Below the pieces are notes generated by a model that was not told the DNA's origin, ran no database searches, and saw only the letters and a program-made list of their open reading frames with translations. Below, piece by piece: positions 10,552 to 54,888 of a stretch of 64,000 bases of DNA; within the stretch, counting starts at the first letter, position 1, and each line of letters opens with the position of its first letter. The DNA is from Nitrospirota bacterium (GTDB lineage Bacteria > JACPQY01), in contig JACPAV010000004.1 of NCBI GenBank assembly GCA_016180645.1, positions 95,544 to 159,543 of the forward strand, in the 5' to 3' direction. The position numbers were made by a program, and so were the translations under genes.

Positions 10552-11673
10552 TCAGAAGCGGGATGGGTCAGGTGGGACGGGGGGCTGGAGGAGGAGGGCG
10601 AGGGGGACGTCCGGGAGGGAGGTGACGAAGGCAATGCGGCCGAGCCAATGATCGATCCAGCCGATTTCGGCGGGATCGCGGGAAAGGAACAACGTGAAGT
10701 GAGGATCCGGGGCCTCGAAGATTTCGAATGGGGCGCTCTCCGCTCCCAGTGTCAGTTTCGCCTCGGTGCTGAGGAGGTCGGGGGTAAGGATTTGGAAGCC
10801 GTGGGCCACAGGATTGGCAAGCACGAGCCGTGGCCCTTTCTTGGTAAGCCCGACGCTCACTGCTTGCGGCGCACCACTCACGGCGAAATCCACGCGGGAT
10901 GTGAGGTTGGAGGAGATCCGCGTGACGGCACCCGACCCCGGCCGTGAGACGTAGACACTGCCGGATTCGCCGACCATCATTCCCGTGGGCTTCGAGCCCG
11001 CCGCAAAATCAAGGGATACGATTTCACGGAGGGGGTCCACTCCCAAAACCAAGACCCGGTCTTTCTCCGGAATGGAAACGAAAAGCCGCTCGTTGGTTTC
11101 ATCCAACACCAAACGCCCCGGCCGGCCGGGGAGGTCGTACGCACCGATGTGGGAGAAGTCCTCGTACGACAGGAGCACCATTTGCGGAGGGCTGAACCGC
11201 GCCACGAATACGATGGAACGTGCCGCCCCGTACTTGGCCTCAACCGGATTGGATAAGCCAAGGTTTACTTCGGATTCAATGTCTCCCGTCGCAGCTCTAA
11301 TCGTGTGCATTCTCCCTGATGCGGAAAGGCCGTGGAAGTACCCTCCATCGGGCGAAAACCATCCGGTCCGGAGAGGTTCCGGGAGTGAAACGTCTGCAAT
11401 GAAACGAGGGGTTGAGCTGTCCGGGGAATGAACCCTGACCAGTGACAGTACCGAAGAATCCTCCTCTCGGTTCCAAATAGTCAGTTGGCCGAGCCCAACG
11501 GCGGGTCGAGTCTCGTAGAGGAGGAAGAAAGGTCGCCACACGGAATCGTTCGCCTGGCCGGAGCAGGAGAGAACGGGCAGACAGATTGACAGGATGAACA
11601 GAACCAGCTTGAGGGCATCCGAAAAATCGTGCGGGTATCGGAGCACCCGCAGGCTGAAGCCTGCGCCTACCAT
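10552..11673 (-). CDS. Propeller-like lipoprotein; start disturbed by a palindromic repeat
   Basis: The hydrophobic run LKLVLFILSICLPVLSC is a lipoprotein signal. The following ~330 residues look like a seven-bladed propeller (repeats such as RLVLDETNERLFVSI and YVSRPGSGAVTRIS), similar to YncE/SMP-30-type surfaces. The frame is open back to an ATG at 11739, which overlaps the barrel gene by 13 bases, but residues encoded by 11640-11712 come from a palindromic repeat. I place the start at the ATG at 11673; a GTG at 11652 is also possible. It closes a three-gene lipoprotein/envelope operon starting near 13.15 kb. Confidence 0.6.
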   Translation of the reverse strand: MVGAGFSLRVLRYPHDFSDALKLVLFILSICLPVLSCSGQANDSVWRPFFLLYETRPAVGLGQLTIWNREEDSSVLSLVRVHSPDSSTPRFIADVSLPEPLRTGWFSPDGGYFHGLSASGRMHTIRAATGDIESEVNLGLSNPVEAKYGAARSIVFVARFSPPQMVLLSYEDFSHIGAYDLPGRPGRLVLDETNERLFVSIPEKDRVLVLGVDPLREIVSLDFAAGSKPTGMMVGESGSVYVSRPGSGAVTRISSNLTSRVDFAVSGAPQAVSVGLTKKGPRLVLANPVAHGFQILTPDLLSTEAKLTLGAESAPFEIFEAPDPHFTLFLSRDPAEIGWIDHWLGRIAFVTSLPDVPLALLLQPPVPPDPSRF

Positions 11674-26682: not shown

Positions 26683-26800
26683 CTATCGAGGCTAAACCTC
26701 CACAGCGGCTATCGAGGCCATGGTCCATGCCGTGCCCTCCATGGCACGGCGACATTGCATGGCCCCATACCGTCCTCGACATGGGGTTTAGCCTCGATAG
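26683..26800. repeat. MITE-like element with 16-bp terminal inverted repeats and internal hairpins
   Basis: CTATCGAGGCTAAACC (26683-26698) is the exact reverse complement of GGTTTAGCCTCGATAG (26785-26800). A second copy of the arm, CTATCGAGGC, starts at 26709. Inside are CATG-GTC-CATG, TGCCGTGCC-CTCCAT-GGCACGGCGA, and CCCCAT ... ATGGGG hairpins. A close relative with compensatory base changes lies inside dnaE2 at 53161-53247. There is no room for a transposase. Confidence 0.7.
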
Positions 26801-30814: not shown

Positions 30815-31030
30815 ATGCAAGATTTCGGTCAAGAACTTCGAGCGATTCGCAAAGTTCTGTGGGTCCTGGCCGCGTTATGGCTGGTGCAGATCATTCTCAG
30901 CCACGGAACGGTCTTCGCACCCGGCAGCGTGGTCGCCGAAGAGCCTGAAAACACCGTCAGCGTCGACATCGTCAAGATTGCGGGCCACACGATCGTTGGG
31001 CGAAAACTGCCGGTCGAAACCCAGGAGTAG
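30815..31030 (+). CDS. Small single-span membrane protein, unknown
   Basis: This 71-residue protein starts at an ATG 5 bases after a strong GGAGG (30805-30809). MQDFGQELRAIRKVLWVLAALWLVQIILSH contains one membrane span; the remainder (ENTVSVDIVKIAGHTIVGRKLPV) is probably outside. Its stop codon TAG is part of the left arm of the palindromic repeat at 31027-31085, so the repeat may have supplied the end of the gene. I recognise no family. It follows the lipid A operon by 39 bases. Confidence 0.6.
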   Translation: MQDFGQELRAIRKVLWVLAALWLVQIILSHGTVFAPGSVVAEEPENTVSVDIVKIAGHTIVGRKLPVETQE

Positions 31031-31085
31031 GGGAGGGTCTTCAGACCCTCCCGGTGGGAGGGAGCATCTAAAGATGCTCCCCTAC
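31027..31085. repeat. 59-bp palindromic repeat element
   Basis: GTAGGGG (31027-31033) and CCCCTAC (31079-31085) bracket two hairpins, GGGAGGGTCT-TC-AGACCCTCCC and GGGAGCATCT-AA-AGATGCTCCC. The imuB gene carries a second copy of exactly the same length (51237-51295), with the second hairpin nearly identical and the first changed by paired substitutions. Confidence 0.75.
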
Positions 31086-50204: not shown

Positions 50205-50239
50205 TGGTCATGGATACCATACTGGTGTATGCTATCGGT
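50205..50239 (+). promoter_or_regulatory. imuB-dnaE2 promoter with putative SOS (LexA) box
   Basis: CATAC-TGGT-GTATG (50218-50231) is a 5-4-5 palindrome also found upstream of lexA. TGGTCA (50205-50210), 17 bases and TATGCT (50228-50233) form a possible promoter whose -10 lies in the right half of the palindrome, with the ATG at 50240 following after 6 bases. LexA bound here would cover the -10. Confidence 0.6.
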
Positions 50240-51553
50240 ATGTTTCGGCAGATCGTTCACCTTGATCTTCCCCGCTTTATCGCCTCCATCGAGGCGGCGA
50301 TCGAGCCGATGCTGAAGACCAAGGCCTTTGCCGTTGTCCCCACCGTTTCGCCCCGGGCGCCCGTGGTGGACGTCTCCCTTGAGGCGTGGCGGGACGGCGC
50401 GCGCAAGGGCATGAGGTTTCACGAGGCAAAAAAACTCATTCCGCAGCTGCGGGCCGTGCGGCCGCATTGGGGGGCGGCCCGGTCGGCCGGCGAGCGGCTC
50501 TTCGAGATCGCGCACGGCCTGTCGCCTTTCGTCGAGCCTGCCGGCCATGGCCATCTCTTTGCCGACGTGACGGGCGGCGAAGTTCCCCATGCCGATTCTG
50601 CTCGCCGTCCCCGTAGCGAAGCGGAGTGGGGGGGCGATGCGATGGCGAATCGGCTGCTGTCCGAAGTTCGGAGTCTGCGTATGTTCAACTGCGTACTGGG
50701 GGTGGCGACAAATAAACTGGTGTCAAAGGTGGCCGATCGGGCCTTCAAGCTTTGGCAGCCCTGTGGAGACGGGATCCTTCGCGTCGAACCGGAAAGAGAA
50801 GAAGAGTTCCTGGCGCCGTTACCCGTGACGTTGCTCCCTGAGATGCATTCCAAAACGGCCGGCCTCTTTGATCTGTTGAACATCCGGTTCATGCGCGATC
50901 TCGCCGGCCTCGATCCGGTGCAGGCCCACTCCGTCCTCGGAAAGAAGGGGCCCGTTCTCGTGCGGGGGGCGCGGGGGATCGATGATTCCCCGGTACGTCC
51001 TTATACGGAGGGAGCGGATGCGATCGACGAGCGGGTGATCTTTTCACCGGACACGAATGACTGGAGCCTCATCCGCGCGAAGCTGTTCGTGGCCGTGGAG
51101 AAACTGTCCGTCCTCTTGTACGAGCGGGGACTTGCGGCCCGCTCTTTGAGTGTGGAGGTGACCTACACGGATCTCGATACGGCGCGAAGGCACCGGGCCA
51201 TCAAGCTGGAGAATGAGAGCCTATCCCAAAACCCGTGTAGGGGCGGACCTTTGGGTCCGCCCATGAAGAGGGAGCATCTGAAGATGCTCCCCTACATGCC
51301 TGGGAGTCTTGGTATAGGCTCCAAGCACTCTTTATTCACGGAGGCGGATGCGGCCCTGGAAGCGGCCTGTACACGAAGAGTGCGCGTCAAATGTCTTGTC
51401 GTCGAGGTTTCAGACCTCAAGCCCGCGAGCCGGCAGATCGGTTTGTTTCGAGACCCGCAGGAGGAGAGAAGACAACGGCTGGCCGGCGCCGTTCACGCCG
51501 TGCGATCCCGGTTCGGGTTCGACGCCATCCGGTTCGGCGCTTCGATCGTATGA
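50240..51553 (+). CDS. imuB: ImuB-like inactive Y-family polymerase, with an in-frame palindromic insert
   Basis: The protein is 437 residues from the ATG at 50240. The Y-family fold starts MFRQIVHLDLPRFIASIEAA and continues with the helix-hairpin region FMRDLAGLDPVQAHSVLGKKGP. The position of the catalytic S-x-D-E-x-F-x-D motif reads GHGHLFADVTG, without the Asp-Glu pair, as expected for ImuB, which bridges the mutasome rather than polymerises. It is coupled by ATGA to dnaE2. A 105-bp inverted-repeat element (51217-51321) adds 35 codons in frame in the little-finger region. No imuA/sulA-like gene precedes it. The SOS-like palindrome upstream suggests LexA control. Confidence 0.85.
   Translation: MFRQIVHLDLPRFIASIEAAIEPMLKTKAFAVVPTVSPRAPVVDVSLEAWRDGARKGMRFHEAKKLIPQLRAVRPHWGAARSAGERLFEIAHGLSPFVEPAGHGHLFADVTGGEVPHADSARRPRSEAEWGGDAMANRLLSEVRSLRMFNCVLGVATNKLVSKVADRAFKLWQPCGDGILRVEPEREEEFLAPLPVTLLPEMHSKTAGLFDLLNIRFMRDLAGLDPVQAHSVLGKKGPVLVRGARGIDDSPVRPYTEGADAIDERVIFSPDTNDWSLIRAKLFVAVEKLSVLLYERGLAARSLSVEVTYTDLDTARRHRAIKLENESLSQNPCRGGPLGPPMKREHLKMLPYMPGSLGIGSKHSLFTEADAALEAACTRRVRVKCLVVEVSDLKPASRQIGLFRDPQEERRQRLAGAVHAVRSRFGFDAIRFGASIV
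51217..51321. repeat. Palindromic element inserted in frame inside imuB
   Basis: The arms GAGCCTATCCCAAAACCC (from 51217) and its imperfect complement ending GGTATAGGCTC (to 51321) enclose the 59-bp core 51237-51295. The core has GTAGGGG/CCCCTAC ends and hairpins GGCGGACC-TTT-GGGTCCGCC and GGGAGCATCT-GA-AGATGCTCCC. The core matches 31027-31085 in length and structure. Total length is 105 bp (35 codons) and the reading frame stays open. The flanks KLENE and SKHSLFTEAD would join well without it. Confidence 0.75.
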
Positions 51554-54500
51554 CCGGCCTCGGCTCGTTCGTTCATCTTCAAGTCCACAGCGGCTACAGC
51601 CTTCTGCGCGGGGTGAACCTCGTCGAGGAGATCGTGTTCTCGGCCCGGGAGCGTGGGTACAAGGCCCTCGCCCTTACGGATGTCAACAACCTGTACGCGT
51701 GCGTCCGGTTCTGGGATCTCGCGAAACAGGCCGGCCTGCATCCGATCTTGGGAGCCAAGGTCTGCCATGCGTCGGGAAACGCGGTCCTCCTGGTGGAGTC
51801 GAAAGCCGGATACGCCCGCCTGTGCGAAATCCTTTCGGCCGTCCATCAAATCCCGGGTTTCGACTTGGTCGAAGCCCTGCGAGAGGACGCCGGCGGCTTG
51901 GTGATCTTGTCGAAAAATCCACGGCTCTTGGAGGCGCTTCGCGTCGTCGTTCCTCCCTCCCACCTGTTCGGCCTCGTTACGCCTGGATGCGGACCGACGC
52001 CATATCCCGATCACTCTTCCACTCGTCGTCCCGGTGCCGGCCCCCACAAAGTTCCTATCACCGTCCCCGAAGGGGGTTGCAGCGAGGCGGAAAGGGCGAC
52101 GTGGATCCGCCGTCTTGAAGCGATGAGGCTCCGGCCGGTGGCGACGACCGAAACCACGTTTCTTGATCCTGGAGAGCATTGGATCCACAAGATCCTCCGG
52201 GCCATTGATCTGAATACTTCACTGTCGCGCATGGCGGGAGCCGATATCGCACCGGAAACCGCCTGGCTGACGCCACCCGACGAGATCGGCAAGGTTTTCA
52301 GGGCCGTTCCCGCTGCGATCGAGAACTCCTTGGAGATCGCCGAGCGCTGTGTTCTCGATTCCCCACCGTGGGGCGAGACGATCTTCCCCTCGTTCGACGG
52401 TCTATCCGGAACGGATACTTTTGCCCTGCTCGAACGGTCTTGTCTCGAAGTGGTCGATTCGAGGTATCCGGGGCGCCCTCCGGAGGTTCTGGCGAGGCTG
52501 AGGCGCGAGTTGGAGATCATTCGGGACAAGGGATTCGCGGGCTATTTCCTGATCGTCCGGGACATCGTGCGAAGAGCAACAAGGAGCTGTGGGCGCGGCT
52601 CCGGAGCGGCGAGCCTCGTGTCCTACCTGCTGGGCATCACGGCGGTGGACCCGATCCGGCACAACCTTTTCTTTGAACGGTTCCTGAATCCTTCGCGAAA
52701 AGATCCTCCCGACATCGATGTCGATTTTGCATGGGACGAGCGGGACAACATTCTAAGCTACGTTTTCGAAAAATACGGAGCCGCACACAGTGCGATGGTC
52801 GCCAACCACGTCACGTTCCAACCGCGCATGGCCGTGCGCGAGGTGGCGAAGGTGTACGGGTTGGCGGATGACGAAATCGGCGCGGTGACGGAGCGGATCG
52901 GAGGTGTTTTTGAATCCACGGGGATGCCGACGGAGGCGGTTCGAGGAGCGAGAGATCTCGGCCTCAAGGAGCCCTGGCCCGAGATTTTGAAGATCGCCGA
53001 CCGCCTTGTGGGTTTGCCGCGCCACCTGTCGGTCCATCCCGGCGGCGTGATCCTCACGCCCGGTCCCATCACCCGGCACGTGCCCATTCAAACGGCCCGA
53101 AAAGAAGTGCCGTGCCGTGAAGGGTTTCATAGGACTTCCGTCCTCCACCCTCCGGGTAGCCGCAAGCCATGGTCCATGCCGCGCCCTCCTGGGCGCGGCG
53201 ACATATCATGGCCCCATTCCCTCCGCGGAATGGGGCTTCAGCTTGCGTCCCAGTGCCAAGCAGAGTCGCAGAAGGTGGCCATCATCCACTGGGAAAAGGA
53301 CCAGGCGGAGGACGCCGGCCTCGTGAAAATCGATCTGCTGGGGAACCGAAGCCTGGCTGTCATCCGAGACGCCACCCAAATGGTGCGGGAGAAGGATGGC
53401 GTGCCGACCGAATTCCTCCGAACGAACCCTATCGATGATCCCGGCGCGCAGGAACTCATGCGCACGGGCCGCACGATGGGATGCTTCTACGTGGAATCCC
53501 CGGCGATGCGGCTTCTACTCAAGCGTTGCCGCAAACCGGATTACGACCATCTTGTGATCGCCTCGTCCATCATCCGCCCGGCGGCGAACGACTACATCAT
53601 GGAATACATCGCCCGCGTGCGCGGCGAAAAGCCGGCCACGCCGATCCATCCGCTCCTGGAGCCGGTGCTGTCGGACAGTTACCAGATCGCCGTCTATCAG
53701 GAGCACGTCATGTTGATCTCCATGGCGTTCGCGGGATTTTCCATTGTCGAAGCGGACGGCCTCCGCAAGGCGCTCGGCAAGAAGGATTACTTCGTTCGGC
53801 TCGGGCAGTTCCGGGACAAATTCTTCGCCGGCGCCAGGGCAAAGGGCATCGCGGAGCAACAAATCCTCGAAGTCTGGAAGATGATCGAATCCTTTTCCGG
53901 CTACAGCTTCTGCAAGCCTCACAGCGCCAGTTACGCCATGGTGTCGTACCAGTCGGCGTTCATCAAAGCGCACCATCCGGCGGAGTTTTACGCGGCCGTC
54001 ATCTCGAACCAGGGCGGCTACTACCACTGGTGGGCCTATCACAACGACGCCATCCGCGAGGGGCTGCGCGTTCTCCCACCGAGCATCAACCTGAGCGAGT
54101 GGAAGTGGCGGGGATGGGAACGGACGCTCCGCATGGGTTTCATGCAGATCAAGGGTCTGAAAAAGGAATCGGTGGACGTGCTTGTGGAAGACCGCCGGCG
54201 AGGTGGGCCTTACGGATCGCTACGGGAGTTCCTAGACCGCGTTCGCATCGACCCGTCCGACACGATTCTCCTCATCAAGGCCGGAGCCTTTGACAGAGTA
54301 AGCGTCAGCGTAACGCGAGCGCAGATGATCTGGTCCGTGCTAAGCGACGGGAATCGTGACGCGAGAACGAACGGGAACCTGTTTCCGTCCGCCGAACGAC
54401 TGCCTGCGCTCAGCGCCTATGACGAACAGACGATGCTCCGGCACGAGGCGGACGTGCTCGGCTTTCTGGTGAGCCGCCATCCGCTCACGCTGTATCAGGA

Positions 54501-54888
54501 CGAAATCCGCCGTTTGAACGCCATACCGGCGAAGGATCTGGACCGGTATGCCGGCAAGGACGTGACGCTCGTCGGCTGGTGGGTCACGTCGAAGCCCGCC
54601 GAAACGAAACGCGGCGAGCGCATGGAGTTCGTTTCCTTCGAAGACACAACGGCCCTCTTTGACGCGACGCTGTTTCCGAAAGTCTATGCGCGGGCCGTTC
54701 CGTATCGCCACCGCCCCGTGCCCTACGTCATCCGTGGAAAAGTCGAGGAGCAATTCGGCGCCTGCACCGTCACCGTCTCTTCCATCGCGCCCCTGAGTCC
54801 CATCCGAAGCGGCGCTTCAAGGCGATCCGGCTCGCGCCGCGGGCTGCCGGACGCCTCTCCGGAGGAGAACTCGTACCTTGCCGGATGA
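51550..54888 (+). CDS. dnaE2: Error-prone DNA polymerase III alpha subunit, with an in-frame palindromic insert
   Basis: The protein is 1112 residues from the ATG in the ATGA overlap with imuB. The N-terminal PHP domain begins FVHLQVHSGYSLLRGVN. The polymerase core has SCGRGSGAASLVSYLLGIT, the catalytic Asp pair in PPDIDVDFAWDERD, and SGYSFCKPHSASYAMVSYQSA. The OB-fold near the end reads VTLVGWWVTSKPAETKRGERM. It lacks the beta-binding/tau tail of DnaE1, as DnaE2 does. Between TARKEVP and KVAIIHWEKDQAEDAGLVKID, where family members are directly joined, about 45 extra residues are encoded by a palindromic repeat (53107-53265). It performs SOS translesion synthesis with ImuB. Confidence 0.94.
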   Translation: MTGLGSFVHLQVHSGYSLLRGVNLVEEIVFSARERGYKALALTDVNNLYACVRFWDLAKQAGLHPILGAKVCHASGNAVLLVESKAGYARLCEILSAVHQIPGFDLVEALREDAGGLVILSKNPRLLEALRVVVPPSHLFGLVTPGCGPTPYPDHSSTRRPGAGPHKVPITVPEGGCSEAERATWIRRLEAMRLRPVATTETTFLDPGEHWIHKILRAIDLNTSLSRMAGADIAPETAWLTPPDEIGKVFRAVPAAIENSLEIAERCVLDSPPWGETIFPSFDGLSGTDTFALLERSCLEVVDSRYPGRPPEVLARLRRELEIIRDKGFAGYFLIVRDIVRRATRSCGRGSGAASLVSYLLGITAVDPIRHNLFFERFLNPSRKDPPDIDVDFAWDERDNILSYVFEKYGAAHSAMVANHVTFQPRMAVREVAKVYGLADDEIGAVTERIGGVFESTGMPTEAVRGARDLGLKEPWPEILKIADRLVGLPRHLSVHPGGVILTPGPITRHVPIQTARKEVPCREGFHRTSVLHPPGSRKPWSMPRPPGRGDISWPHSLRGMGLQLASQCQAESQKVAIIHWEKDQAEDAGLVKIDLLGNRSLAVIRDATQMVREKDGVPTEFLRTNPIDDPGAQELMRTGRTMGCFYVESPAMRLLLKRCRKPDYDHLVIASSIIRPAANDYIMEYIARVRGEKPATPIHPLLEPVLSDSYQIAVYQEHVMLISMAFAGFSIVEADGLRKALGKKDYFVRLGQFRDKFFAGARAKGIAEQQILEVWKMIESFSGYSFCKPHSASYAMVSYQSAFIKAHHPAEFYAAVISNQGGYYHWWAYHNDAIREGLRVLPPSINLSEWKWRGWERTLRMGFMQIKGLKKESVDVLVEDRRRGGPYGSLREFLDRVRIDPSDTILLIKAGAFDRVSVSVTRAQMIWSVLSDGNRDARTNGNLFPSAERLPALSAYDEQTMLRHEADVLGFLVSRHPLTLYQDEIRRLNAIPAKDLDRYAGKDVTLVGWWVTSKPAETKRGERMEFVSFEDTTALFDATLFPKVYARAVPYRHRPVPYVIRGKVEEQFGACTVTVSSIAPLSPIRSGASRRSGSRRGLPDASPEENSYLAG
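53107..53265. repeat. Cloverleaf-like palindromic element inside dnaE2
   Basis: The core 53161-53247 has the outer stem CGCAAG/CTTGCG. It contains CATG-GTC-CATG, TGCCGCGCC-CTCCTG-GGCGCGGCGA and CCCCATTCC-CTCCGC-GGAATGGGG hairpins. The core aligns along its length with 26709-26800; most differences fall in stems and are compensated on the partner strand. It is translated (residues such as RKPWSMPRPPGRGDISWPHS) without a stop. Outer limits are approximate, set by where DnaE2 similarity resumes. Confidence 0.7.

Follow-up and report, generated by a model that had tools for sequence, protein, structure and literature searches.

The dnaE2 gene at this locus carries palindromic DNA within its reading frame, which raises the question of what that DNA is and how it came to lie inside a conserved gene. 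The window is the whole stretch of DNA analyzed (64,000 nucleotides), and it belongs to a 4.7-Mb genome that is 97% complete (G000); the sole other genome of the same phylum that we compared (G001) is from a sister genus of the same family. The question concerns two features:

51391–54888, forward strand: dnaE2 ORF, a C-family DNA polymerase III alpha with PHP, pol3_alpha, finger, and HHH_6 domains (Pfam; ORF)
53107–53265, forward strand: in-frame insert of 53 codons in dnaE2, between the pol3_alpha and finger domains (homolog alignment)

A first-pass annotation had described a palindromic element inside dnaE2, and the sequence is as it described; the element is one member of a large family of repeats. 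The insert is bounded by TARKEVP and KVAIIHWEKDQ and gives DnaE2 53 to 56 extra residues at this position relative to 12 homologs (mafft). In all 39 of the 39 unrelated relatives searched, the alignment with the DnaE2 homolog flanked the insert on both sides and never ran through it. The annotation had held that residues shared with DnaE2 proteins of unrelated lineages would speak against an insert, and the insert is indeed absent from other DnaE proteins. It is probably tolerated because it is located between domains and the frame is kept. No DnaE2 ortholog was found in G001, where the search returned only matches to the repeated core described below.

The insert consists of a repetitive extragenic palindrome (REP) and a smaller two-hairpin core, which is set into the REP close to its apex:

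53155–53247, forward strand: host REP GGTAG-CCGCAAGC-TTCA-GCTTGCG, broken by the core (sequence; reconstructed empty site; the same REP lies beside a Y1 transposase gene)
53166–53234, forward strand: nested two-hairpin core, net insert 69 nt (covariance model match 53166–53235, 93.9 bits)
53167–53211, forward strand: core arm 1, an outer stem CCATG/CATGG enclosing hairpin H1 (53178–53199, loop NTCCNN)
53212–53235, forward strand: core arm 2, hairpin H2, CCCCATTCC-ctccgc-GGAATGGGG
26709–26800, forward strand: second copy, with its core at 26717–26786 in an unrelated host palindrome, CTATCGAG^GTTTAGCCTCGATAG (sequence; model, 86 bits)
11648–11671, reverse strand: uninterrupted REP CGCAGGC-TGAA-GCCTGCG-CCTACC, the 11.6-kb element

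The host stem, CGCAAGC-TTCA-GCTTGCG after GGTAG, occurs uninterrupted in 78 copies in G000. The annotated limits were correct for the insert (53107–53265) but not for the repeated core, which is 53166–53234 or 53235, the surrounding 53155–53247 being host REP. The dnaE2 insert is a GTAG REP with a nested second element and hence is not separate from REPs. It could have arrived whole as a REP–core composite, or the core could have entered a REP already present.

The relative reported at 26.7 kb was confirmed, its core being 84% identical to that at 53.2 kb over 73 nt, and both elements fold stably (z-scores of −4.9 at 53.2 kb and −6.2 at 26.7 kb). The proposal that the fold is conserved while the sequence changes was likewise borne out by compensatory changes, for example, inner TGCCGCGCC versus TGCCGTGCC. 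The covariation read from the outer stems (CTATCGAGG/CCTCGATAG versus CGCAAG/CTTGCG) was an artifact of comparing two different host palindromes; the outer stems of the two copies differ because their cores occupy different hosts. The 11.6-kb element, which had been counted in the family, is an ordinary REP, and the best model matches there have E values of 0.68 and 5. The window contains no stand-alone NTCC hairpins besides the two cores.

The adjoining gene of the cassette carries a palindromic insert too:

51237–51295, forward strand: plain REP doublet GTAGGGG...CCCCTAC, without a core, in an ImuB-like ORF (50210–51553; IMS domain) (sequence; Pfam)
31027–31085, forward strand: further copy of the GTAGGGG REP doublet (sequence)

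The doublet at 51237–51295 lies in frame within the ImuB-like ORF, and therefore both genes of the mutagenesis cassette have palindromic inserts. The annotation had judged this unlikely by chance; intragenic REPs in dnaE2, uvrA, and other DNA-repair genes were already reported in 2013 (PMC3733652; also PMC3116915 and PMC8266576 on REPs), and the coincidence loses its force.

We then asked how widely the core occurs. BLAST with the element found at least 42 places, and a degenerate core pattern found 67 places in G000 (30 + 37) versus none with a reversed-pattern control, as well as 15 copies in G001. A covariance model built from 44 cores gave ∼70 matches in G000 and 46 in G001 at E ≤ 1e-8, diverged subfamilies included. 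The annotation had named a covariance search without further copies as grounds for abandoning the insert; with this many copies, the insert claim survives. The high copy number, dispersal, and palindromic form of the core (67 copies; fold) are those of a REP. At E ≤ 1e-4 with stricter filters, the model had no match in 384 other genomes, and the core had none in phage, plasmid, and viral collections. An exact-pattern scan of 84,980 species matched only the record to whose contigs the G001 copies correspond (JACPQY01, Nitrospirae bacterium NC_groundwater_665) and one Planctomycetota contig. On that contig (JACPTZ010000178.1; L126:3225–3388), a 164-bp composite with a core is 98% identical to a G000 locus (L079), with no similarity beyond the 164 bp, and sits in a HisZ-like gene (an identification by eye from the translation). 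This may be a horizontal transfer or a local misassembly; because the HisZ-like gene, read across the junction, seems to be without an internal part, misassembly is possible and we do not take the composite as proof of transfer.

The copies fall into several forms. A subfamily of 66 to 67 nt has H1 as YGGCCC-NTCC-TGGGCCR; another, of 78 to 79 nt, has an extra palindrome, TCCGCCGCGGCGGA, within the H1 loop; and in a third form (L204–L207), all three stems are altered. In four G001 copies (L200–L203), the H1 loop bears the small palindrome TCCGCCGCGGCGGA, which is nesting one level deeper. Separately, three composite repeats (G000 L118, around 783–842; L231; and L232) have a normal H1 and an H2 replaced by CCTGGCC-CAGGAC-GGCCTGG, which suggests that hairpin modules are exchanged.

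The fold of the core is under constraint. Its helices are the outer stem (2–6/42–46), H1 (13–20/27–34), and H2 (47–55/62–70), and across 70 distinct core sequences 94.2% of cells pair, with both sides changing in 13 of 22 pairs. In this alignment, which is fitted to the model, there were 113 compensatory cells versus 24.2 ± 3.9 when shuffled and 3 to 16 in slid controls; the unfitted first alignment gave 30 versus 8.2. Both loops read NTCCNN; in the first alignment, the T and C never vary and the N positions are some of the most variable sites. Such fold conservation with an invariant TC in both loops would also suit a structured RNA or cis-regulatory element selected for an RNA-binding protein, with UCC loops on one strand and GGA on its complement, similar to CsrA/RsmA or anti–Shine-Dalgarno hairpins. 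We regard this as highly improbable, given that copies occur in many contexts, some within genes, and that no Rfam 15 family scored above its gathering threshold (below threshold, matches included ar14 with 25.1 bits where 58.8 were required and PrrB/RsmZ with 16.7 where 44 were required). A CsrA sponge, hinted at by the GGA loops of the complementary strand, was considered and set aside, given variable outer loop bases and the lack of an Rfam match.

Taking the core out restores unbroken palindromes, such as GGTAGCCGCAG^GCTTCAGCCTGCG, GACGCACCCGTAAAG^GGTGCG(N)CTACC, GGGAGGACCTTCAG^GTCCTCCC, and CCCTCTCCCTGAAAG^GGAGAGGG, and further GCGGACAG^GATGTCCGC, ATGCCCGCGCAG^GCGGGCAT, and GCCCCGCAG^GATGCGGGGC. 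In both genomes, the palindromes that hold a core close to their apex are many and unrelated. With a clustering threshold and scoring of our own choosing, a junction stem score of 6 or more was reached by 15 of 36 distinct site classes, compared with 4.9% of (A/G)G^(G/A) sites taken at random (p ∼4e-11); ∼40% of the classes had no good hairpin at the junction, which counts against apex targeting as the explanation. AG precedes the junction in 22 of the 36 classes, corresponding to CT on the opposite strand. Beside the left end, only (A/G)G is conserved, and a conserved tetranucleotide of the IS200/IS605 type was not seen there. CCATG...CATGG lies near the core ends, where a MITE of a DDE insertion sequence would have terminal inverted repeats and a target duplication of fixed length. 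Duplication at the junction is at most 1 to 2 nt, usually GG and in four copies GA (L099, L112, L228, and L230), and is indistinguishable from none because the flanks and core ends are G-rich. That the net inserts of 69, 66, and 78 nt are divisible by three was considered as a signal and set aside, since most copies lie outside clear genes.

The usual GG at both junctions raises the main rival explanation, in which the core would be the miniature form of an IS110-like (bridge-RNA) element or of another recombinase exchanging at GG, inserted into REP-like palindromes by a trans-acting enzyme. IS110 genes are present in the genome, among insertion sequences that target REPs the IS110 family was the most frequent in one survey, and the position of ISPsy8 (IS3 family) coincides with the symmetry axis of the REP (PMC1525189). 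However, the host palindromes have almost no common sequence, a poor fit to a sequence-guided enzyme; several junctions are GA rather than GG; and around the single full-length IS110 gene found (L109) we saw no core-like ends. We therefore consider this explanation unlikely. Downstream of that IS110 gene lies an AT-richer palindromic cluster (L109:3025–3095; G000:C15).

Whether the core moves by itself or is only copied with its hosts was addressed by comparing copies. Near-identical cores occupy unrelated hosts (L033/L035 differ by 1 nt, L002/L128 by 1 nt across genera, and L037/L040 by 2 nt), and therefore the core appears to move independently. At the same time, nearest-neighbor cores share a host class in 62% of cases versus 15% when shuffled, and therefore REP–core composites multiply too. 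The latter result, together with the 34 and 33 of 122 copies found in two REP host classes and the long self-complementary loops of some GTAG REPs (PMC3733652), would suit an immobile core, which would be a long-loop variant of several REP families, multiplied only together with its REP and shuffled between palindromes by gene conversion or template switching. That is quite improbable, in our estimate, in view of exact junctions in more than 10 unrelated palindromes and of near-identical cores in unrelated hosts that include non-REP palindromes such as CCCTCTCCC-TGAAA-GGGAGAGGG.

Orthologous sites gave further evidence. A TldD/PmbA-like gene (L037; G000:C16:103300–105400) contains a palindrome and core in frame, and its G001 ortholog, 58 to 67% identical, has neither. 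In-frame insertion into a conserved protein, as known from Rickettsia, is thus seen in both DnaE2 and TldD. No empty/filled pair for the core alone was obtained at an orthologous site, the comparisons at TldD and dnaE2 missing host palindrome and core together. In addition, a MacB-like ORF (L032; G000:C8:85700–87800) has its ATPase and MacB domains separated by a complete REP-core-REP unit that leaves the frame open, and the MacB-like ORF of G001 has a different linker there; the L032 ORF may be two adjacent genes read as one.

On balance, we favor the conclusion that the core is a non-autonomous mobile two-hairpin element of ∼66 to 78 nt (69 nt here) that inserts near palindrome apices and multiplies together with its host REP as well. 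The core would insert near the apex of an existing palindrome, mostly directly after AG and with a duplication of no more than 1 to 2 nt; it would move between unrelated palindromes; and REP–core composites would multiply as units, probably via the RAYT transposase that serves the REPs. Cleavage of single-stranded REP DNA by TnpAREP enzymes occurs at CT (PMC8266576), and because the preferred AG^ is CT opposite, a Y1/HUH enzyme is the leading candidate for moving the core. Tentatively, then, a nuclease of this RAYT type might move it by acting on single-stranded hairpins and cutting CT on the complementary strand, and the NTCC loops may be its recognition feature. G000 has seven Y1 transposase genes. 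Two are RAYT genes (L106 and L107) flanked by REP types that host cores, although the REPs there are plain; the other five either end in terminal inverted repeats that bear no relation to the core or show no visible connection with it. No Y1/RAYT gene bounded by cores was found, so the core does not share the REP habit of flanking a RAYT, and among the Y1 and IS110 families searched there was no autonomous parent with core-like ends. The core consensus also has no GTAG or CGTC tag, which is present in the host REP at 53155.

The core shares with GTAG REPs and REPINs, which RAYT (TnpAREP) serves and which are its hosts here, a short, palindromic, and non-autonomous form, but it is untagged, fits two hairpins into 69 nt, is nested in other palindromes, and has no RAYT with matching ends. 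REPs nested in palindromes are known as GTAG-23 of T. roseum, GTAG-15 of A. variabilis, and CGTC-1 of H. neapolitanus (PMC3733652). These are likewise palindromic repeats within palindromes, but they are tagged and have one target consensus each, whereas the core is found in many palindromes unrelated to one another. YPAL/RU-2 of Yersinia is also miniature, and YPAL targets span or flank dyad symmetry (PMC2229807), but it is about 168 bp with 3- to 26-bp duplications, compared with 69 nt and 0 to 2 nt for the core. ISPsy8, IS1397, ISPa11, and IS621 also enter REPs, ISPsy8 at the symmetry axis (PMC1525189); unlike the core, they are complete transposons that carry a gene of their own and enter one REP type each. 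Rickettsia palindromic elements, which similarly add in-frame residues to conserved proteins (PMC2229807), are a further parallel. At 105 to 146 bp they are larger and not described inside other repeats, a comparison made by description rather than by sequence. The SDR4-6 repeats of Nostoc are reportedly small and mobile, with a shared fold, compensatory change, and nested insertion; they are cyanobacterial, 21 to 27 nt long, and found mainly in heptamer repeats or in themselves. Small mobile hairpins are therefore known; relative to the open-licence literature, what appears new is one small untagged element that uses many unrelated palindromes, riding inside others with its fold kept while its letters change.

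A broader reading, which we hold to be rather doubtful, is that these are lineage-specific tiny mobile elements defined by their fold, in which an undescribed structure-reading enzyme would bring an NTCC-loop two-hairpin module to the tip of nearly any DNA hairpin, so that the module would parasitize other mobile palindromes and spread on their transposases. If the core is mobile as we propose, REP-type repeats would themselves offer insertion sites to a second mobile element, smaller than they are and guided by hairpin structure, and therefore bacterial palindromic repeats could evolve by nesting. The family would then provide ∼120 fold-conserved natural substrates for learning how hairpin-binding transposases choose their sites, and would show a route by which REP–core composites enter conserved proteins in frame.
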